From Pomacea canaliculata (taxonomy: Eukaryota; Mollusca; Gastropoda; Architaenioglossa; Ampullariidae), in NCBI RefSeq assembly GCF_003073045.1, contig NC_037599.1, positions 3,906,001 through 3,970,000 on the forward strand: a stretch of DNA of 64,000 nt. Direction: 5' to 3'. The notes beneath the pieces are model-generated. The model worked only from the letters and a program-made list of their open reading frames with translations. It did not search any database and was not told the DNA's origin. Positions 3,073-26,216 of this stretch are shown here, piece after piece; positions within the stretch are counted from its first letter, which is position 1; each line of letters opens with the position of its first letter. The position numbers and the translations under genes are program-made.

Positions 3073-6000
3073 TCATAGGTTTGATGGCAAATACTCTATC
3101 TTGTGTCCTCGGTTGAATGAAAATCCCTTAGGGCCATCGACCACAAAAAGTGAAGACCTCCAGTCGAAAAGAGCAACAAGGATTACAGCAATGGCTGACT
3201 GGTCGAACCTGTGACAACGCGTGTAAACTTTGCTCCCATCGCCACATCCGTTATAAAGTTTTTGACAGTCTTGCCCTGGGCATAAGCAGTCAGGAGAGAA
3301 AGCACAAGCCACCCAAGAATCCAGAATGACTTTCTCTACAAAAAAGTCATTTTTCAGCGCGATAAAGCCCCCCGCGAGCTCAAAGAAGGGAGCTAACTGG
3401 CAGGCTTGTAGCCGGAAGTAATTCAACATGGGTTGTGCCACGTGTCTGGCGAGCATGTTTTGGGTACGTGAAATGACCATGCCGTCTGCCAGTGCCCTCT
3501 GGACAACGGAGAGAAAGGCCAGGCTGCTTTTCTCGATGATTCGAGTGCTGGAGTCCATCCACACGGTCAGTCGAGAGTACTTGAGGTAGGCCTGTATGTA
3601 GACAAATAGAGAAAAATGTGTCAGTCTCACAAAAACTTTTTCAAAATTCAGCTGTGGAAGGTGTGGGAGATGTGTGAAGACATGATTCTAACCTAGTTTA
3701 TATGAGAGGTTTTGTGTCCTCGCAATTTACTCTGTAAAATGGTCGTCTATGAACTCTTTAACGCCTGAAGGAGATTTAATTGCAGCCCGGCTCTGCACGT
3801 CGGCCTCAAGCCTTTACCTTGAATTTTATGTTCACTTCCATTCATAAGAGATACTTAAGAGAGATACATAGTAGTGATAATCATAATCATATAGGCATTA
3901 AGTTTTGTATTGCTTCTTTAAGTAGACCTTTCCCTTATTTGATGGTCACCCAAGCATTTAAACTTGTAATCGAGATGATACTCTATACATCTTTTATATT
4001 ATGAAAAAGGGGAGAGAGGGGTTAAGGGATGAGGAGGGTGAGAGATAAAGAGCAGAGAAGGAAGAGAAAAGAAGAAATAGAAACAGCTTCTGGAATCGAC
4101 TGGTGCGATAATCAAGATGTTCTAGCATACTTTTAAGCTAACTGGAGGTTTATCCGCATCACTGCAGTATAAACAGCTTTGTGACTCCCAAAATTTATAA
4201 AAGATATTAGCTTGTTACAATATGCAAAAGACAACGCTGAGGCTGGACTGTCAGGAGTTGAAGGAATTATATCAGAATGCTGCGATCCATACCTTCAGGA
4301 GTAACGGTTTCCAAGAACACGTACTGAGCTTCCGGAAGTTGGGGGGTAACTTGTCAAAGGGAAAGGCTATCACGTCGCACTTCCCGTACTTTCTGAGCTG
4401 AAACACATCACAGGGATGAATTGGAGATAGGTACACCGAGTGTAAATTATCAAGAGTTTGCAAGCAGCGGTCAAAACAACGGTTGCTTCTCGTGCCACTA
4501 TCTTTGTACGTATAGTTACATACTTTTTGTGTGTGTGAGTATAAATTTGTGAGAGTTTTTAAATGAATATTGTTCACATAAATTTGAAATGATGTTTTTT
4601 CATGTGTTTGCGAGACAGAAAGACTGATGAACGCAGAAGCAATTTCGACTGCTATTACAAGCTGCATGTGCGAAAAAAAAAAATAGAAAAAATGAAAACA
4701 AATAGTGGTAGTATTTGTAAGCATCTCTAAAAGAATAAATGAACGAAGGAAAGAAAGAAAACCGCCTCATACAAATCTTTCTCACACGCATATTCAATTA
4801 CCCCCCACTACATATACTTTCCCACCCTCAGTAAACATCCGCGTCAGTTAAAAAGGGTTATATACATATGTTAGTGTACTCACTAAATCTGTTTGCAGCT
4901 TTCTGAGGCCGAGGTCGAAATACACGAGGCGGGTAGTGTTGCCTGGAAAATGTTTGTGAAGCATTGGGAATATAATTTCTTGCAGTCCTTTGATGGTGGC
5001 CTGCGTCTCCCCGTAGTGATTGGACGACGCTGCCGTCAGGAAGATGAAGTCCGCTCTCTGGGATTCGTTGGCGAGGCTATCGATGACCTCAGCAAACTGT
5101 GCGCTCAGAATATCATGTGACTGCAGCATCATCCGCAAGCGTTCCGCCGGAACCGGAAACGTGCTTGAACAGTTCTCATCAAAGCAAGGATTTCCTGCGA
5201 AAAGGAGAGACTTGATGAATGATTTTTCTTTCTATTTTGGAATGCTTCAGACTTCTGTGGAAATGGCGAGCAGTATCCACAGTAAAATAATAAATGCACA
5301 CTTATCCACTAGCAGGATGGAAAACATTAGATGGAGAGATAGACGAACAGTTAATAAAGTGAGCAGACGAGTAAGCAAAAAGTACTAATTCAAGATTTAT
5401 TTAGTACTTACCATTCTTTAATTTGTCTTCTAATGTTAGTGGACAGGAAATATTTCGATAATTACGTCCACGGGGTTTGATTCCTGAAAAAAGTTTTTAA
5501 TTTCAAGCACTTCTTCTTGATAAAAAAATAAGTTTTAATAACTGAGAATATTGCAATTCATTTCGCGATTAATCAAAAAAATCCGATAATTGAGTACAGT
5601 TAAAAGCACTGATCATAAAAAATACTTTTGGAATAGTTTCCTACTCAGTAAACACAAAGCTCCAACCGTCACAAGAAACTAATTCGTGGGAGTGGAGAGA
5701 AATAAATGAATACCTGATAAACGCTGCAAATATTCCTGCAGCAGTTTGTCGTCCATTTTAAAAAGTCGGGTGGAGTTCGGCTTCGTGGCAGTTGTGTGGA
5801 CTGACGATGACGTCACTGGACGGAGCTGTCTATTCTTATTGACGTTAGCGGCTGTAGCTGTAGCTGTCGTCGTCTTCTTCGGCAGACGTGTTGTTGAGGT
5901 CGAGGTTAGTAGACGTGTGGTTGGGGTCGTGGTGATTTTAAAACTGCTGGTTGAAGAATGTGTAGTTGAATGCTTGCCTGTCGTCTTCCGTGCAGCTACG

Positions 6001-7389: not shown

Positions 7390-8718
7390 TTGCTTCTTTA
7401 TCAGACTTTCAACGTTTGTAGCTTGTATCTTTAGGAAATTACAATGAGTACAACCTAACCCCATCTGAGTGTCAACGAGAACATTCAGCAACAGCACAGT
7501 GTGTCCCGGTCTGTTTTTTTGTTTGTTTTTTTGTTTTGTTTGTTTTTTGTTTTTTTACCGGGAATTGAATATTTCCTTTTCGAATTCAGCAAGGGGCCTG
7601 AGGACGGTTGCCCCAGTTGCCACCCTCAAAGGCCGCCTCTGATCACGAGAAATGGAAAGGCTTCAGATAGTGTGAACGAGTCGTGACATTATTAATTATT
7701 ATACACTGTCTTTCCAAAGCGTGTTATGCCGTGTCACATATTCTTCTAAGTATCCCAAATCTCTATTGGTTACAGTTATTAGAAATCAAGGCAAGAACAT
7801 CAGGAAGGCGAAAAATCAGGAGTATGAGGATGGCAAGTTCATGATCATGAATATTCATGCATATTTAACTTTTGAGTTCATCGTCAACCACTCCCGATGA
7901 CGTCTCTATGCCGTCTCGGTAAGTAAACACGAAACAAAATTAACCCCACCCCACCCCCACTACGGCCATTTGAGACCCTGGATTGAAAAGTTCAATCATT
8001 TCTGTGGTGTTTGTCTACGCATTATTCAATAAGCTGACATCATGCATTGAAGAATGATATGAACTCTTTTTTTTTCTTTTATCTCTTGGAGAGCGAAGTT
8101 TGCTAAGCAAACAGCAGATAGATTGACTCGGACGGCGCACCGTACTTCCCCAGTATGACAAGCTGTGGAGGGGTATCATGGGAGGGGTATCAAGGCAGCT
8201 GTGGAGGGGTACCATGTCTTCCAAAAGGGTCGAGAAAGAGGTGCCCTTTTGCACTGACTGGATGACTGATCTCCTCTATGCATGCACGAATAGCTAAATG
8301 CGGTTGGTTTCCACGCTCACAAACCTCGACCTGCACAGTTTCTGGTTTCTGTCCGCCCCGCATTACTTTCCAAAATAAAAGCCTACACCAAAACCCTTAT
8401 ACTAACCCAAACCCTAAAGCAATCGTAATCACAGATGTCCAACTAACAGGCTAAAACACATATACATATACGCTCTTCCAAAGAAAAAAAAAACCAAAGC
8501 TTAAAACAACAAAAAAAATGGCTGTTGGTTCCTTGCTGCCCACTGTGAGAACGATTTTTGGGGAAGTGGATGAACCCGACAAGTTCAGGTTGGGTGATTT
8601 CAAATATATAATTTCTGAGGCAGCAATAGCAAAAAGGTTTCATTTATGTCTACAATAAAACCAGTGATATCGGAAACCTGTTCCTCGTTCCATCTGACTT
8701 GTTCCTCAAATACTCTTG

Positions 8719-10611: not shown

Positions 10612-12716
10612 CAGACTCCACCCTACTTACAAACATGCAAACAGACGCCGTTTACCTAAAATTATTTCTTGTAATACTTTCACGAATCCGAATTTTGAGA
10701 TGCGCGTCTTCTTTTGTCTTGCGACAACCAACACGGAGCAGTACCTCCAACATCTACCCGCCAATGGCCACTACCCCACTGTGTCAGTTTGATAACACAC
10801 TCGTTGGTGGTGTCCCCATTTGAGTTGGTACTAAGATACCTAGACATTCTCACAGTGTGCAGGTTCATGCCGGCAAGAGATATGTATGAGAAGTGTGTCA
10901 ATGTTCAGTGAGACGAACCGACACTCGAGACGAGTTCGCGGGTGGTAGAACAGTATATAACAGTGCAGCTCAGTGAAATGTCAGCTGTACAAAAAAAGTT
11001 GCATTTTTATTATTTTATTAGCTTAGTCGGTTTCTTCATAGGATTCGTCTGCTATTTTTGTTTGTTTGTTTTTGTTTGTTTGTTTTGTGTGGTTTTTTGG
11101 TTGTTTTTTTTTTCGGTGTGTGATAAATTAGCTCGTCCGTCATGGATAATGACAAGTGCAAAGCAAGTGTTGAAAGTGGCAGTGTTAAAAAGCCGCAAGC
11201 AATATCAATGGAGGCAAAGGTTGCTATAATAAAGAAATTTGCGAAAAGATGGTGAATGTGATACGTTCATATAACATGAATCGTTCAACATTTGGAACAG
11301 TTTACAAAACCAAGGACCGGATTTGGAGCATATTAAGAGTTCTGTACCTATGCAGTCGACGATCTACAATAATTTTCAGGAAAAGGGGAAAGCTGTCAAA
11401 AGGAATGGAAAAACTTTTGAGCCTTTGGATTGAGCACCAGTGGCAGACACCTCTTAGCCTCATGCTTATACAAAAGAATACGAGAAACCATTTTAAGGAT
11501 TTAAAGGCCAAGGCTGGGGAAGATGCCACTGATGAGACATTGTCAGCGAGTGTCAGGGACGGATACACGACAACACCACAATTACTGACTACACTGTCAA
11601 CACACCCCGTCCCACACCTGTCCTTTCGTACAACACACCACAAAGATTTCACGTGGGCTTACTCCTCTGTTAAGTGGGAGCTTGTATTTATTGTAGGGGG
11701 GGAGGTAACTAAATTTACACAACTCAACATCTATACATAAACAAGATTATAAACCATAAATATCATATTAATGTCATGAATAACTTCCAACCTTTCTAAA
11801 GTTCCTTTTAATTAGACCCAAGTTTCTCCAACTGTTCAACAAAATAGTTCAACTCACAGTTTGGATGATGTCGCAGAGACGTTCACTATCAAACACACTA
11901 CTACTCTTCCTTGGATAATCGTCCGCACATAGCCCTCCTCGAGTATCTTACACTTATCTTACAAGTTCTGATACGGCCTTAGCACCTGATTGGTGACGAG
12001 ACCACTTCAATAATCACAATATCCACACACAGCTGGTGTTGATTAGACATATACTCCAACTGCTGAAGATCCGACACCAAACGTCTTCCTTCTTCGATAT
12101 TTCTCTCTGGGTAATTCCTCTTCTAGTTACTTCATGCAATGCTGGGCTTAGCAAGGAATTAAACCGATTCCCCAATCTCTTCTACTCAAAATTTTCTAGT
12201 CTCTCTTCGTTGAAGACTGGCATGGGAATGATCAAACTCAGTATTTTTCATACACCAGAGATTCGGTGAACCTTTTTTGCTTTTTTCTTGAAATCTTCAC
12301 TTCCACGCACTCTAATGCAACGAAAATGATGACTGAGGCATTTTGTGTTACAGAGAGGGGTCTCAGTGTGTTTGACCAACAGGACCCCAACATCAATAGG
12401 TTCTCGGAGGTTTCAAAGGGCGTTAGCGACGCTATTCTATGTTACCGTGTTATTTACGACGAGAAGAAGAAAAAACATTGCAAACTTCCCTGGACAAATT
12501 CTTCAGACCAATGCCTTCTACCTCAAGAGCCTTCACAGATGTCAACCTCCTATCCTCTTCTCATATATTAACTTAAATTTATAGCACCAGTTTGAAAGGT
12601 AATCTATATATTATTATTACAGTATTTATATTAAAATGGCAAAATAACGACTTACGAGCAATCGTTACGAACTATTTTTTTGGAACGTAGCTCATTCGTA
12701 AGTAGGGTGGAGTCTG
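10612..12716 (+). mobile_element. Tigger (pogo, Tc1/mariner) DNA transposon, internally eroded
   Basis: Perfect 19-bp terminal inverted repeats (CAGACTCCACCCTACTTAC at 10612-10630, reverse complement at 12698-12716). A TA dinucleotide precedes the left end and a TA occurs 2 bp beyond the right end. Inside, 11142-11550 reads as the N-terminal DNA-binding half of a Tigger transposase in shifting frames (AISMEAKVAIIKKFA, VNVIRSYNMNRSTFGT, MEKLLSLWIEHQ, DLKAKAGEDATDET). Then 12330-12490 reads as the transposase C-terminus (SVFDQQDPNINRFSEVSKG, CYRVIYDEKKK). The catalytic DDE core expected between them is not recognisable. With its frames broken and its core missing, it cannot encode an active enzyme. 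It lies only about 140 bp from the preceding hAT-like element. Confidence 0.8.
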
Positions 12717-18324: not shown

Positions 18325-21300
18325 ATGGCGTCATATGGAAGAGGGTCGTTTGAGGGATTTGATTCCTATCAAGGAACATCTGCTAGCAGAGGTAAGGATT
18401 ATGCAAATGATGAGCTGTTGTCATTATCAGTGCAGGCATATTTATTATATGTGGAAGATTCTTTGTTTACATAAACTTTTTCTCACGTCTCTTCCACTTG
18501 TGCACATACATGCAATGAGAACCATATGTGTCAGGTAAAAATGGCTTTTAGTAAAATCTCAGACGTGATTCTGGTATCTGAAAAGAAATGCCCGTAGTGT
18601 TGTTTAAAGTTTTGATATTGTACCCAGGTGGATATTCTGTAGTGAGACATACTTTTCAAGTGAGATACAAGTAGCTGAGGTGTTAGACATGGCACATAAT
18701 AAAATGCTCATTTTTGTTGTTGCTATTGTTGTTCTTTAATGTTTTATTGCTTATTTTGTTATTTACCAAGAAGTGCAAGTATAATGTATTTCACTGATAT
18801 TTATTTGTCACATATATATAGCAGTTTGTCTTGGTATAAGTCATTGGATAAATACAATGTAAACACAAGACCAAGTGTTTTTGCCAACAGTTTCAAATGG
18901 TACATTAATTTTAGTAATTTACTTCTGTGTGTGTGTGTTTCTTTCAGAAAGTGGAACTGATTTTGGAAGACTATCACAAAATATTAGTGCCAACATTCAG
19001 AAGATCACTCAGAATGGTGAGTACATATCTCGTGGAGGTGCCGTTTGTAAACAATGAATAAATAGAGATTTCTGGAATATTACAGCCATTTATATGAAGG
19101 TTTACAAATATAAAACATCTGGCTCTGTGTTGAGTATATGTTTTATTTATCTGATTTTTAGTGGCACAAATCCAGCGGTTAGTTGTCCAGATTGGAACAC
19201 CTCAGGATTCAGAAGAAAACAGGCAAAGAGTGTGCGTACTGGAGACTTCATTTTTCCTTTTATCTATTTATCCCATCGATGTCACAAACTGTGATAGGCA
19301 AAAGCCAAAACCAAAGGCACGAATGCGAATCAGTGTATGGTATTCAGAATTTTAAATACAAGTGGGACATTGATTGACTTTTTAGAGGATAGCAGGATGC
19401 TGGGCATCCCACCAGGACATTTTATGAGCATGTGGGCACGCAGTCCAAGGTGGGACTGGCCCCATCTAAATCTGGACGTCTGGTCACCTTACAATTTCAC
19501 CTTACAGTTTCACCCTGCACTTTAGCAGCATACGTGAAAGTGTGTGCGTGTGTACATGCACGTATGCATATATGTGTGCACACCTCAGTGTGTGTGTTCG
19601 ATTCTGTTAACATATCAGTGATAAATGAATAGTTCAAATAATGTGCATTAAAAAACAGGCACATTTTTTTTCAAGGAAGTTATTTAATGTTGCACTAGGT
19701 GCTTGTTTCGAATGGGTAACACACGTGCACACAGAAACATGCTTTCCATAAAAAGTGTTCTCTCAATGTCAGGCACCAGACAACGCACTACACCAATCAG
19801 CTGGCTAAAGAAACAAATAACTTTTTGAAGCAGCTTGCCCATCTACCCTTGCCTACTTCTGCATCTGAGCAGGTGAGTTTACTAGTGTTTTAGATCTGTG
19901 ATGTTTTTTGTTTTTTTTTGGGGGGGGGGGGGAGGAATCGATGTTCTTGCATGTGCACATACATTGACTTGTTTACACGTGGAATCGGTGCAGACCCTTG
20001 CTTTCTGGAGAATGAAGAGAGTGAAAAACCGTTTGACTCTGATCATGGCTGAAAGTGCAGCAATTTCTTTTCTTATTTGTTGTTTGATAGCGACAATGGA
20101 AAATGCAAAAGGAGCGACTTACAGATGAGTTTAGCACAGTTTTGACAAATTTTCAAACGGCACAACGCACAGCTGCAGAGAAGGAACGTGCCAGTGTACA
20201 GCGAGCTCGAGCATACTCTGGTCTTAATCAGGTAAGTATTCATAGAAAGTGCTATCAGAAATTTTACTTTTCTTTTCTCCCACTATTGTCCTTGTCCTTT
20301 AAAATAGGCTAAAAATATCTGGTTTCTTGCATCAAATATCCAAATTCTCATTAGTTCGTAAATCAAAAACCATCATCAACTGCAAGCTTTTCTCTGTCCC
20401 TAACAGTACATATGACGTCTTCCTTTTATATACTTGCAGTCACCATTTGAAGACACTGAACAAAAAGGTGACAGAATGGGAGCACCAGGGTAAGGTATTT
20501 AAGAGCTCTAACTTAAGTTGTTCACTATTGACTATTCAGTATCTAACCATGGCTTATTTTGCAAAAGGTCCTAAAAAAAAGTCCAAAACTATCTATGGAA
20601 AAAATGTATCTGGAATAAGAACATAGCTGTTGCTATTCTATTCAACTTGAGGCCTTACAATTTGAGATTAGTGATGGAGGTTTGATTTGCAGGTCTCACT
20701 AAACTTGAAGACAGACTCTCTTAAGTTTTCTTGTTTTTTGGAGTTTAAGGTTGGCAGAGGGAGTAATTGCAGGACATTATTTGCATATTTAGCTATTCAC
20801 AAACCCGAGAGGTCCTACAGATGGAGCAGGATGTTGACCTTGAACTTTTGCGTGAACGAGAAGATGCTATCAAGAAGTTAGAGGTAATTACTGGCTGCTC
20901 GTTTGCTCTTGCTGTGAGTTTAGGGGTTATTTTTGTGGGTTTCTTTGTTGTTTTTGGTTTTTAAATCTTTAAAAAAATTTCTAAACACTGTTAAAATATA
21001 TTTATTATTTAATGAGTTGCCATTATTAGAAAGGAAGTTCTTTTTTTTTTTTTTAAGGGGGGTCTGGGCAATTTTAAGCAGTTCACTTCAGCTTGATAGA
21101 ATGATACAAGGTAGCAGGCAATAGTCAGATATTGATATTTTATGGTGAAGTCTTCGTACTGTTTTCAATTTTGATTTCATGTTTATTGATGTGTCACTGA
21201 ACAGCGAGACATCATGGATGTCAACACCATTTTTAAAGACCTGGGCATGCTTGTACATGAGCAAGGAGAAGTACTTGGTAAGTTATTTCTGAAGCCTTTT

Positions 21301-23232
21301 GGTACAGGTGGCACTGCTGTATTAAAAAATAAACTGTCAGTTTTTACCTCATATGTTTGATGAGGATCTTTAAGGCTTTTCTTTTACTTGGTGTCTTTTT
21401 TTCAAAAGTTCATTCATTCAGCTGCACATTACTTTTTTTTGTTGCTTTGCTGATCACTGGTAGGTCATGTACAGCTGAAATTTTGTAATATGACCATAAA
21501 CCCTTAATGAGATTATGGCTTCATTTTATTTACAGACAGCATAGAGGCCAACATAGACAATGCTCAAATGTCTGTTCAGGAAGGAACACAACAGCTTAGC
21601 AAAGCAAGGGAATATCAGGTAAGAAGAGTGAAGGGACTTATTATTGTAGACAAATGTTTGTGTGTGCGTGCATATGTGTGTATGCGTGCAGTATGTATAG
21701 ATAGCATTTGGGTACCCATCTGGACTTTATCTAAGTCACAACTTTTGACTTAAGCTTTATTCTGCACTGTATTGTGTTGGACCCTGCCTGTGGGCCTATT
21801 TTAATCCTTCTCTGTTGCATCCATCTGTATACTGAAATAATCATTATCTTACCTAGTGACATTCCTTAACATGCACTTTTAATTTTTAAATGTCAGGGTG
21901 CATGGAAAAAAGTTCCAGTGTTTTTTTGTATGCTAGCGAGCACACCTTATGTCTCATGGCTCAGTCTTATACAAGATATTCTTTATCATTTGCAGTCAGC
22001 TATCTACACATTTATTTATTCATTTTTGTTCTTGCACAAATTTGTAACAGTCCTCTTAATTTTGTTTGCTATACTTATGCTGTAGAAATTTTCATTATTC
22101 TTGGAAATACCATTAAACAATTTTTAGAGAGAATGGAAAATGATTTAAAGGAGAAACATTTGAATGCAAGATATGGTTCCAGCTGATCAGGCCTAGTCAA
22201 GTGCAATTTATTTTTGAAAGTTTAAAGAATGTTCTGATAAGACATGATAATTATTGCCCATTTAAATAAAAGATTGATATTTTTATTTTATGTCATCCAT
22301 TAATGATGTTAACCTTTGCCATTTAGTACAAATTTCCAAGCTAATTTACCCTTTTTCTTAATTTACTTTTGCCTTTGTAAAAGGGAAAAAAGTGTCAATT
22401 TGTGAATAAGCTTTGTAAAAGAGAAGAGAATTTTTTTTTTTTTTGCTTTCAGTTTTTTCCTTGCATGACTTTATTGTTTTCTGCATGCACTGGATCCTTT
22501 CATTTTCAGTCCAAAGCAAGACGAAAGAAGTGCTGCCTGCTTATCGTGTTGCTGGTCGTTTTGGGGGTTGTGGCTATAATTATTGCCGTTTCCGTCACCA
22601 GCTCTAAGAATTAGCAAGGTCTGGGCAACTTGAAGTTTTTATCATAAAAAATTTACATATCAAAATACTAAGAGTGCTGAGTTGGCAGAGTGTTGTGATA
22701 TAGGGTGTGGGGTAGAGAGGATTTTATGTTGCCTGTAACCTGATTGTTTTGTGTTTTTACATGATTTATTCCCTCCATGTATAGAAATTTATGGCTGTTT
22801 TGTTTGTTTTGTGTCAGCACCAAATTCTACAGTCTTAGACACTTATAACAATTAACTTGCTTTGAGTAGGTACATAAAAAGCCACCATTGATTCATTTGC
22901 ATTAATTACTTTTTTATTATTATTAACATTGACAAAGTCCTGTGCCATGTCCAGATGCTGGCAACTGTACTAAGTACAAAAGTCGTCAAATAATTGTTGA
23001 ATGTTTAAATATATAAAGCTAAAATAATAATAATAAAATAAAATTAGAGTGCAACATTCTAGAATGGTCAACAGAAACCCAGAAAATTATTAGTTTCATC
23101 ATTTTGCATTTTAGTTTGTGTTCCCTACTTTCTTTTCAGAAAAAATCTCGCAGGAAGATGTGCATTCTTCTCCTGATCTTCATCATTGCTGTTACAATAT
23201 TAGCTTTAGTCATTTGGGGAGCCACAAAATAA
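18325..23232 (+). CDS. STX12: Endosomal Qa-SNARE, syntaxin 7/12 family, with two alternative last exons
   Basis: Exons: 18325-18391, 18948-19016, 19162-19231, 19773-19872, 20091-20231, 20440-20489, 20793-20883, 21205-21277, 21536-21618, then either 22510-22614 or 23140-23232. All phases agree, giving 282 or 278 residues (human STX12 has 276). The start is MASYGRGSFEGFDSY. The Habc bundle includes YTNQLAKETNNFLKQL and SEQRQWKMQKERLTDEF, close to STX12. The SNARE helix runs through RDIMDVNTIFKDLGMLVHEQ, where Q is the ionic-layer residue, then DSIEANIDNAQ. The protein drives fusion of early/late endosomes and lysosomes and is anchored by its C-terminal helix. The 18.3-21.6 kb exons are shared by both isoforms; the anchors are described separately. 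Assignment to STX7 rather than STX12 is not resolvable by eye. Confidence 0.93.
22510..22614 (+). CDS. STX12: Syntaxin alternative last exon A: plasma-membrane-syntaxin-like anchor
   Basis: Preceded by a pyrimidine-rich acceptor (TTTTCAG) and in frame with exon 9. It reads SKARRKKCCLLIVLLVVLGV and on through a hydrophobic helix to a TAG stop, ending SSKN. The juxtamembrane SKARRKK equals that of syntaxin-1-type plasma-membrane syntaxins rather than syntaxin 7/12. Two adjacent cysteines at the membrane boundary are possible palmitoylation sites (inference). Confidence 0.85.
   Translation, partial: SKARRKKCCLLIVLLVVLGVVAIIIAVSVTSSKN
23140..23232 (+). CDS. STX12: Syntaxin alternative last exon B: ancestral STX7/12-type anchor
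   Basis: Acceptor TTTTCAG, in frame with exon 9. It reads KKSRRKMCILLLIF, continues as a hydrophobic helix and ends VIWGATK, then TAA. This matches the human STX12 tail (KKSRKKMCILVL) almost residue for residue, so it is the conserved endosomal form. Using it means skipping exon A, 525 bp upstream. Confidence 0.88.
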   Translation, partial: KKSRRKMCILLLIFIIAVTILALVIWGATK

Positions 23233-26216
23233 TATCTCACATTGCTAATGTATTGGCTTAACTGAAGACATCACCATAAGTTTAAAACACATTTTTTGTA
23301 AACCTGCAAACAGGAAAGTGATGATTATTCTATGGTATAAACTGTGATGCTGGTGTTTCAAAATAACCCAACCGTAGATTTAGCATCGTGTACAGATATA
23401 GTAGTACTTGTTTCACAGTGGATGTACATAGTTGTGCAAACGTGTTTATTTTCCCAGAATATGTACAAGCAGTAAAATATTAATGTACATGTAAACCATC
23501 GACTGAGCATTGTAGATACTTGTATACTCTTACATTCTTAGGCTACTATAAGTTGTATGTAACCATTCCTACTTGCGGAGAAGAAAGGCAAGTAAAATAA
23601 TATGTTTGTTGTGGCATGGATTTACAGTTTGTTTCTGATTTTGCAATCATTATTTTGTTCAAGTTGGTTAGATGTGCATGCATTTGTTAGTATGTGTGTT
23701 AGTGAGAGAGCAAGTGTGTGTGTTTGCACATGCGCATTTGTGGGTTGTGTAAGCAAGTAAGGACATGAGTATGATGTGTATGTGTGTGTGAAAGAGGAAG
23801 AACCATTTTAAGGCTGCTTGTAAATCTTGCTGATCTGACAAAATATTGTGAAAAATTATCTTTATTATTCCTAAAGTAAAAGCTGGTTAAGGAAGTAGAT
23901 TTAAGATTCATGAAATTCATTTTAATAGGCTGGTATCAATTGATACATTCAGAAGTCACATTGTGGGTTACCCCATCTGCCTCTTGATAATTTGCAGTCA
24001 TCATTTTAGTTGGTTGTTTTAAGAGTTCATTTCATGGTCAAATATCTTAGGCTTTGTTGTCTGTGATTTTGATTGTTTCATCCCAAGCAACAACAACAAA
24101 AAAAATACATGCACTTTCAAGCAGAGGGTTACCACGTGCATACCATCAGAATAACAACCTTCTTGAACTTCTCAAGGTTTATCATAACTATTCTTGGATG
24201 TGGATGTGAGGAATATGGAAGTAGAAACACTTGTGCAAACTTGATTAAATGAAATGAAAATTTGTACAAATTGAAATGTGTATCTTGCAATCAACAGAAT
24301 GTTACACGATACATTTTGGCATTTTTATTTTTAGTTTGGTGTAACTGACAGTATCAACATGATTAAACTGTTTCCGAAACGTTTAACAAAGCTTGGTAAA
24401 CTTGTGAGTGAATTGTTAACAATAAATGACAATTCGTATCAGTATGTACTTTAGGGCTGAGACAGGACCCTCCTTTCATGGAAAGATTTGCACGTGATAG
24501 GATTCTCGTTTTGTCAGTGTCTGTTTTAGTATCCGCTATCATTTTATGATCATAGTATATGATCTTCATGATTAATAATCATAAGGTGAAAAGATGATGT
24601 AAGAATAAATTTAGTTAATGCTCAGTTTTAAAGAATTAGGGATAAACGATTATATGGATAATTTTGCAGTTTTGTAGCATTTTTTGTTAATATTTAGTTG
24701 TTTTCGACATCTTTTAAAATATTTACTGAAAACTATGGGAAAAAAGTTCCCTAGTTGGAAGGGGGGGGGGGGGGAACCTCTCAGTAACATTTAAGAACAG
24801 ATTTTGGTTATCTCCGAGTCAGTTTGCATTACTTATAAAGAGGTAAATTATTCATGTTTATGTTCAACCTCTCTAAATTGGTGTGCTGGATTCTAACTTA
24901 TGCATTAATTTTATGTCCATCAGAAAGCAGATTGAAAATGCAATATATGTGTACTTGTGTCATTACTTGATAAAGTTAGCCTTTCAGTCTGACTCTGCCC
25001 AGTGTCTTACTGTGACTTTTTCTTTATTCAGCCCCTTAATGTTTTCTGTAAGTAAAAACATGCATAAAGTTGGAATTCATGACAATATTGGATTGCTGTG
25101 TGGTGATTGCATTCATTTTAAGCTGTACATAATTTTGTCTTATTGTCACATTTGCATATGGCATATGCACAAACCATAGCGACTTGTTATATGTTGCTTT
25201 ATACAACAGAATTATCACAGTACATACACCTGCACCTGACATTCACCTGACATGCTGTTTTTTCACTGCTTTCTGTCACACAACACCACACTACGCTGTA
25301 ATTACTGTATGTTGAGAAAAATAATGCCCAGATCAATACTCATCTCCCAAGTAAACTATTGATGGAACCTGCATACTAAATGCACTCCTCCAGTGTTGGT
25401 GGGGAGGATGTTCGCACCAACCGCCATCACTGTAACAGCATTATAGAAACTTGGGTGGGGCTATAAGGTGGTGTCCTATGCAGTCTGTTTTGAAGTGAAC
25501 AACCTTAGCTCGCCAGACCTGACAGTCAAGAAACCATGTACAAAATGTGAATTATTACATAGGCGAACCTGTGACTGGGTTTCATTAATAACAACAATAT
25601 AGGACCACATTTTTTTAGCTTAACTCTGGACACCGATCTTGTACAAACCAAGTGATCAACGTTTGACTTCACCGGCATATACATTAATCATTAATATGTG
25701 TGTGTGCCTAGTGCATACACATAATATGTCTCACTTGGTAACATAAATGCACATGTTTCTTGGCAGTTATGCAAACACTGAGCATCTTCCTCAAAAAATT
25801 TGTAAACGGTAGTTCCTTTCTTCACACCACTGATAGTTTTGTACAGGATATGACACCCACCTGTGATGCATTATTTTATTGTAATGCATTATTATATTAA
25901 TTGAAGTAGAGTATGAATTATAATACACTTGAACATTAGTGTAGATTTTCTAAGGCTCGTGCCGTCGTGGGCGCATGTGTAGCAAGATAGGACCTCTCAA
26001 GAATCGAACTCCCAGCAAGGTGTTGTAAGGACAGAACCGAGCTCTCAGCGAGAACCAATGGTCTGTGCATACTACAAAATTCAATGGGTGTGCGAACGCC
26101 ACAATCCCACCCCGTCCCTCGCCTTTTTCTCTTTCTTAGCCACTCTGAAACTATACTATGAACCCACCATTCAAAACGAAATATGCAGTGGCCTTAAAGT
26201 CAATCCTCTCGTTGCG

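Follow-up and report, generated by a model that had tools for sequence, protein, structure and literature searches.

The syntaxin gene of the snail analyzed here ends in two complete alternative membrane-anchor exons, which lie in tandem and are both in phase with the last exon of the shared gene body. The encoded protein appears to be an endosomal Qa-SNARE of the syntaxin 7/12 class. In the interpretation considered probable here, the two are alternative last exons, designated A and B, and the exchange of one anchor for the other would serve as a means of fine-tuning within the endomembrane system.

Gene structure and the two anchor exons

The window, i.e., the whole stretch of 64,000 nucleotides under analysis, corresponds to positions 3906001-3970000 of contig C10, and the assembly searched for paralogs comprises 24 contigs (440,159,624 bases). 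The features of this gene are given in window coordinates and lie on the plus strand. A gene model was assembled from splice sites, from an ATG at 18325 to position 21618; once joined, exons 1-9 (18325-21618) form one open frame of 248 codons that ends in phase 0 after ...LSKAREYQ. Exon 1 (18325-18391) begins at the ATG and has the donor gtaagg; it is followed by exon 2 (18948-19016), exon 3 (19162-19231, with the weak donor AGT^gtgcgt, score 2.1), exon 4 (19773-19872, the TNQLAKET region of the N-terminal domain), exon 5 (20091-20231, aligned with the Syntaxin-12 domain 2dnx), and exon 6 (20440-20489). The SNARE motif region begins in exon 7 (20793-20883), continues through exon 8 (21205-21277), where the joined model is accompanied by alignment to solved structures, and ends in exon 9 (21536-21618) with ...SKAREYQ and a phase-0 donor, CAG^gtaaga, that is common to both tails.

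Both predicted isoforms contain the Pfam domains Syntaxin_2 (PF14523; 126 bits against a cut-off of 26.5) and SNARE (PF05739). At E values up to 0.001, these were the only two domains detected, and PF00804, the N-terminal Syntaxin domain of the plasma-membrane class, was absent from both isoforms. Compared by sequence with the PDB, the protein of isoform A is most similar to the N-terminal domain of Syntaxin-12 and to the SNARE motifs of syntaxins 7 and 13; the best SNARE-motif structures are 1gl2_B of syntaxin 7 (1.9e-20) and 2nps_B of syntaxin 13 (8.7e-19), with syntaxin 1A chains ranking lower. Since the protein combines Syntaxin_2 and SNARE domains with PDB matches that precede syntaxin 1A, its sequence identifies it as a syntaxin 7/12-class, endosomal-type Qa-SNARE. 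A preliminary description of this DNA had proposed an endosomal syntaxin 7/12 gene, and the complete in-frame structure, the two domains, and the syntaxin 7/12/13 structural matches bear out this class.

Exon A (22510-22614) encodes the alternative anchor SKARRKKCCLLIVLLVVLGVVAIIIAVSVTSSKN followed by a stop, and exon B (23140-23232) encodes the conserved STX7/12 anchor KKSRRKMCILLLIFIIAVTILALVIWGATK followed by its own stop. A TTTTCAG acceptor precedes each exon, each continues the frame of exon 9 in phase 0, and each encodes a basic stretch, one or two cysteines at the membrane border, and one transmembrane helix ahead of the stop. The frequency of such tails was assessed with a loose filter applied to those phase-0 AG starts on both strands that give a tail of 18-60 amino acids; it called for at least three K/R residues before a hydrophobic helix. 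Within the window, 16 of 2529 such starts passed, and three of these 16 reached a hydropathy of at least 3.0, namely exon A, exon B, and a candidate at 11022. A separate filter, calling for at least five K/R among the first seven residues, retained 15 of 7702 phase-0 AG starts on both strands. The basic-head and helix lists overlap across the window, both strands included, at exons A and B only. The two tandem last exons of the preliminary description, each with the right phase, helix, and stop, are the only starts selected by both filters, and the presence of two complete alternative anchor exons at the end of this gene is confirmed as anatomy.

Acceptors, candidate polyadenylation signals, and splicing motifs

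Acceptors were scored with a matrix built from 16 sites (eight from this gene and eight from three other syntaxin genes), from which the acceptors of A and B were excluded. Among the 3839 plus-strand AGs, exon A ranks 18 (score 6.9) and exon B ranks 81 (score 4.4), on a matrix that is small and whose leave-one-out scores range from -7.6 to 7.0. Between exon 9 and exon B, two AGs outscore exon A, at 22453 (8.9) and 22818 (8.7); the acceptor of exon A is therefore good in strength but not unique. The earlier assertion that both acceptors are strong has to be tempered by the two nearby sites that score above A.

The site at 22453 follows a poly-T acceptor (22432-22452), and the frame remains open from there through exon A, defining a possible in-frame extension of 19 codons, FFPCMTLLFSACTGSFHFQ, at 22453-22509. 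Splicing of exon A from 22453 would place these 19 extra residues between the SNARE motif and the anchor, and it could coexist with the fine-tuning interpretation. The better acceptor score (8.9 against 6.9 at 22510) and the open frame favor such a start, which we nevertheless regard as very unlikely: it would break the YQ^ junction common to exon B and to the STX7/12-like paralog described below, and it would put a partly hydrophobic insert into the linker from SNARE motif to membrane.

Two overlapping AATAAA hexamers (at 23032 and 23037, spanning 23032-23042) lie 5′ of the exon B acceptor and, as consensus matches, constitute the probable poly(A) signal of exon A. Further consensus matches follow exon B, with AATAAA at 24421-24426 and again at 24604, and ATTAAA at 24244 and 24362. 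Donor scores among the 39 GTs at 22600-23130 peak at 2.8, for a GT at 22704 that lies 90 bases 3′ of the exon A stop; eight of the nine donors of the gene itself score 4.7-7.8, so that this GT falls below all of them and above only the weakest, the exon 3 donor (2.1). The AATAAA between A and B, together with the lack of a strong donor past A, makes it probable that exon A serves as an alternative last exon and has a poly(A) site of its own. The GT at 22704 does open another route, in which exon A would be a cassette spliced on to exon B, yielding transcripts that are degraded and so lowering the output of the gene. Its score exceeds that of a donor that the gene model uses, yet the donor is weak, the AATAAA lies 5′ of exon B, and an exon that triggers degradation needs a stop only and not a complete anchor; among the alternatives weighed here, this one is given the least credence.

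For the probable arrangement of two alternative last exons, a simple scheme may be proposed. Use of the exon A acceptor, with cleavage near 23050, would yield isoform A, while skipping of exon A would allow splicing to reach exon B and so produce the conserved anchor. The choice would then be set by use of the A acceptor and its poly(A) site before B is reached.

The interval between the exons contains a single match, GTGTTGTG (22690-22697), to the (G/U)UGUUGUG site of UNC-75/CELF, located 76 bases 3′ of the exon A stop. This motif occurs at chance frequency in the window (11 on both strands, 9.8 expected), so the match is not significant, and the related U(G/A)UUGUG falls below expectation (27 in the window, 33.8 expected). 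GU-rich words number 11 in the A-B interval, and 52 of 2539 overlapping windows contain at least as many. The sequence TGTGTGTG occurs 58 times in the window compared with 4 expected from shuffles, including one copy 41 bases past the exon 9 donor; with this excess, and with TG repeats common, the weight of GU-rich splicing motifs is difficult to assess in this window. Control by a CELF protein, as in Caenorhabditis elegans unc-64, is accordingly offered as a lead and not as evidence.

Composition and possible origin of the exon A tail

Paralogs were gathered by SNARE-domain and protein searches of the genome, followed by inspection of each locus. A second, divergent STX7/12-like gene is located on the minus strand of contig C3 (15131000-15140000); its tail is RKSRKKMCCLLVIFLVIIIIVTIIIVVTVKK, and its nearest solved structures are syntaxin 13 and syntaxin 7. 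Its last junction is YQ^ (EYQ^gtaaaa), as for exons A and B; judged by acceptor and donor, the preceding junction is apparently also the same. The scanned stretch of C3 holds one clean tail, ending in KKMCCLL...VTVKK, and its further candidates are weak, interrupted by lysine, and below 2 in hydropathy. On contig C4, a syntaxin 1 gene, named by its matches to syntaxin-1A chains, reads SKARR^KKIMIIVCIVILLVIITIIVVSVVTSN. Its last junction falls inside the motif (SKARR^gtaaga, with the next exon beginning KKIMII; C4 locus positions 5296-5319 and 7595-7675), and its scanned stretch likewise holds one clean tail 3′ of its exon 9 counterpart. Contig C10 carries an intronless syntaxin (RKARRKKCCIFG...) with PF00804 and a divergent intronless copy about 12 kb further; the two genes, near 19,307,000 and 19,320,000, are possibly retrocopies, and their open frames measure 315 and 347 codons from stop to stop. 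A gene on C12, for which syntaxin 1A is the best match of a 60-residue piece among solved structures, is tentatively named syntaxin 16 after its tail.

The head of exon A, SKARRKK, is identical to the juxtamembrane segment of syntaxin 1A in the PDB alignment and to that of the C4 syntaxin 1 (7/7 residues), followed by the C10 intronless gene (6/7), exon B (4/7), and the C3 gene (3/7). That this head is the juxtamembrane motif of plasma-membrane syntaxins, as first described, is thus well founded. The helix of exon A has other affinities: it scores highest against C3 (68; 0 of 500 shuffles as high), then against the C10 intronless gene (56; 0 of 500), syntaxin 1 (49; 3 of 500), and exon B (36; 11 of 500), and it scores 26 against human STX1A (244 of 500). 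The human STX1A, STX7, and STX12 tails in these comparisons are provisional reference sequences. With a head that matches syntaxin 1 at all seven positions and a helix closest to C3, exon A has the sequence of a mosaic, combining a syntaxin-1-like head with a helix nearest an endosomal-type paralog. Exon B, in turn, scores 69 and 56 in its helix against human STX7 and STX12 and then 46 against C3 (none of 500 shuffles as high in any case), and its tail is identical to that of STX7 at 16 of 32 positions and to that of STX12 at 18 of 32, in keeping with its initial assignment as the conserved STX12 tail.

At the membrane border, exon A has a pair of cysteines (CC) and exon B has one. A reading of the pair as a plasma-membrane mark is rejected, as CC is found in endosomal-type syntaxins: the C3 STX7/12-like gene has KKMCC, and in yeast the endosomal syntaxin Tlg1 bears a palmitoylated pair of neighboring cysteines at this border (PMC3044718).

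Plasma-membrane helices are typically longer, and the residues of their outer half are typically smaller. The uninterrupted segment of exon A, at 25 residues, is the longest of ten tails compared (the others are 21-24; exon B is 23), and its outer-half side-chain volume is 123 cubic angstroms per residue, compared with 137 for exon B and, among the human tails, 119 for STX1A, 146 for STX7, and 163 for STX12. The long segment and low volume lean toward the plasma membrane, but the syntaxin 1 of this same genome has a volume of 136, close to that of exon B, and the property therefore does not separate the classes here.

With respect to origin, derivation of exon A from the last exon of syntaxin 1 by shuffling is unlikely. 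The last syntaxin 1 junction lies inside SKARR^KK and exon A starts earlier, at YQ^; hence, the last exon of syntaxin 1 could not supply exon A whole. Recent duplication of exon B was also rejected as a source. A and B agree in the YQ^ junction, in four of the seven head positions, and in having a cysteine as residue 8, and their DNA similarity is at shuffle level (386 of 2000 shuffles as high), such that a duplication of exon B could be at most an old event. The common junction suggests that exon A may be an old copy of exon B; against this origin, its helix is nearer to that of C3 than to that of exon B. If exon A is such a copy, it has kept its frame through saturation, an indication that it is used. 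Searches for relatives with a 180-residue query yielded 6 stretches matching the pattern in viral contigs and 41 in prokaryote contigs, none of which is a relative.

It might instead be argued that exon A has no function, being either a disused relic or a by-product that is seldom spliced. The C3 gene has a single clean tail in its scanned stretch, meaning that the A/B pair has been seen once, and this fits a relic. We nevertheless find a relic improbable, since the frame, basic head, border cysteines, helix, stop, good acceptor, and 3′ AATAAA of exon A are all intact despite a DNA similarity to B no higher than that of shuffles.

Possible consequences of the anchor choice and comparison with known systems

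The N-terminal and SNARE parts of the two isoforms are identical, and both should therefore pair with the same partners. The anchor swap (25 versus 23 residues, CC versus C, and a different outer half) would most likely tune palmitoylation, stability, clustering, or the choice of subcompartment, and a clean switch from endosome to plasma membrane appears less likely than such tuning within the endomembrane system. With plasma-membrane SNAREs as the model, a difference of one residue in helix length can be enough to sort homologous membrane proteins into different domains of one membrane (PMC4313621). The expectation from this analysis is that isoform A would be a differently behaving endosomal SNARE, with relocation to the plasma membrane a minority chance.

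The preliminary description had proposed that splicing could send the same SNARE core to different membranes. In its strongest form, this would mean that exon A redirects the SNARE core from endosomes to the plasma membrane, which we consider unlikely. Its SKARRKK head, identical to that of syntaxin 1A and of the syntaxin 1 of this genome, speaks for retargeting, as do its segment length and outer-half volume. Watson and Pessin reportedly found, in 2001, that syntaxins 3, 4, and 5 are allotted to their compartments by transmembrane domain length, and Syntaxin 2 splice variants reportedly differ in subcellular localization (Quinones, in 1999). On the other side stand the outer-half volume of the resident syntaxin 1, the resemblance of the exon A helix to the C3 STX7/12-like tail above all others, the occurrence of CC in endosomal-type syntaxins, and the location of both unc-64 isoforms at the plasma membrane. 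Retargeting by exon A is, on balance, weakly supported: the match of the head to syntaxin 1 stands, and the step to a different membrane is not borne out by the helix or by the unc-64 precedent. A still broader idea, to which we give slightly less weight, is that one molluscan gene supplies two Qa-SNAREs, one for endosomes and one for the plasma membrane, through a spliced module of juxtamembrane segment plus helix (likely with a palmitoylation site), and that the A-type tail, whose helix is most like that of the single-tailed C3 gene, could have started as the role of one isoform and later become a gene in its own right.

Exon A might also direct the protein to another target of tail-anchored proteins, e.g., the mitochondrial outer membrane, as for a VAMP-1 isoform. 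It has basic residues before the helix and a single lysine after it, and one splice isoform of VAMP-1 is said to carry a mitochondrial targeting signal (Isenmann, in 1998). The helix, however, is long and strongly hydrophobic, and the similar tails in this genome are syntaxin tails, which leaves a mitochondrial destination highly improbable.

Whether the anchor or the cytosolic part sets the location of a SNARE is usually tested with artificial chimeras. A gene in which the cytosolic part is fixed and the whole anchor is swapped, basic stretch and border cysteines included, would be a ready-made experiment of natural origin, and with it regulated anchor choice would reach beyond plasma-membrane syntaxins into the endosomal class. 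Among the papers listed in literature searches, no title or opening of an abstract named alternative anchors in an endosomal syntaxin (7/12), which is weak evidence of absence given that most subscription papers lie outside its coverage and that hyphenated spellings may escape it. In the portions of PMC1794582 that mention STX7 and STX12, the mentions concern phylogeny and gene lists.

The nearest known system is unc-64 of C. elegans, in which exons 8a and 8b, in tandem at the 3′ end, encode two syntaxin anchors with different tissue distributions, and in which UNC-75/CELF, bound to the intron that separates them, governs exon choice (PMC4946901). As stated in the same source, pan-neuronal UNC-64A rescued locomotion and UNC-64B did not, with both isoforms at the plasma membrane, and anchor swaps with CELF regulation are reported for unc-64 and Syntaxin2. 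The precedent originally invoked, i.e., unc-64 and syntaxin 2, therefore holds for alternative anchors as such; the unc-64 anchors do not change the membrane (PMC4946901), whereas the Syntaxin 2 variants, as noted above, reportedly differ in localization. The snail gene resembles unc-64 in having two tandem 3′ exons that give one syntaxin two C-terminal anchors; unc-64, however, encodes a plasma-membrane syntaxin, whereas the snail gene belongs to the endosomal class and the exchange there takes in the basic juxtamembrane part too.

In mammals, the splice forms of Syntaxin 2 and of syntaxin 3 are also of the plasma-membrane class, unlike the snail gene. Both proteins are known to carry the N-terminal Syntaxin domain and not Syntaxin_2; the splice forms of syntaxin 3 differ in their anchors, and several forms of it have reportedly been described. 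Vertebrate syntaxin 7 and syntaxin 12/13 are known with one conserved tail each, and these proteins resemble the snail product in their N-terminal and SNARE core and in the exon B tail. VAMP1, whose C terminus is varied by splicing in a way that tunes targeting (sections of PMC3123573), is likewise a SNARE with spliced C-terminal variants but is an R-SNARE. Thus, by its sequence, the snail gene would represent a known device, alternative syntaxin anchors, in a new gene class, the endosomal STX7/12 syntaxins.
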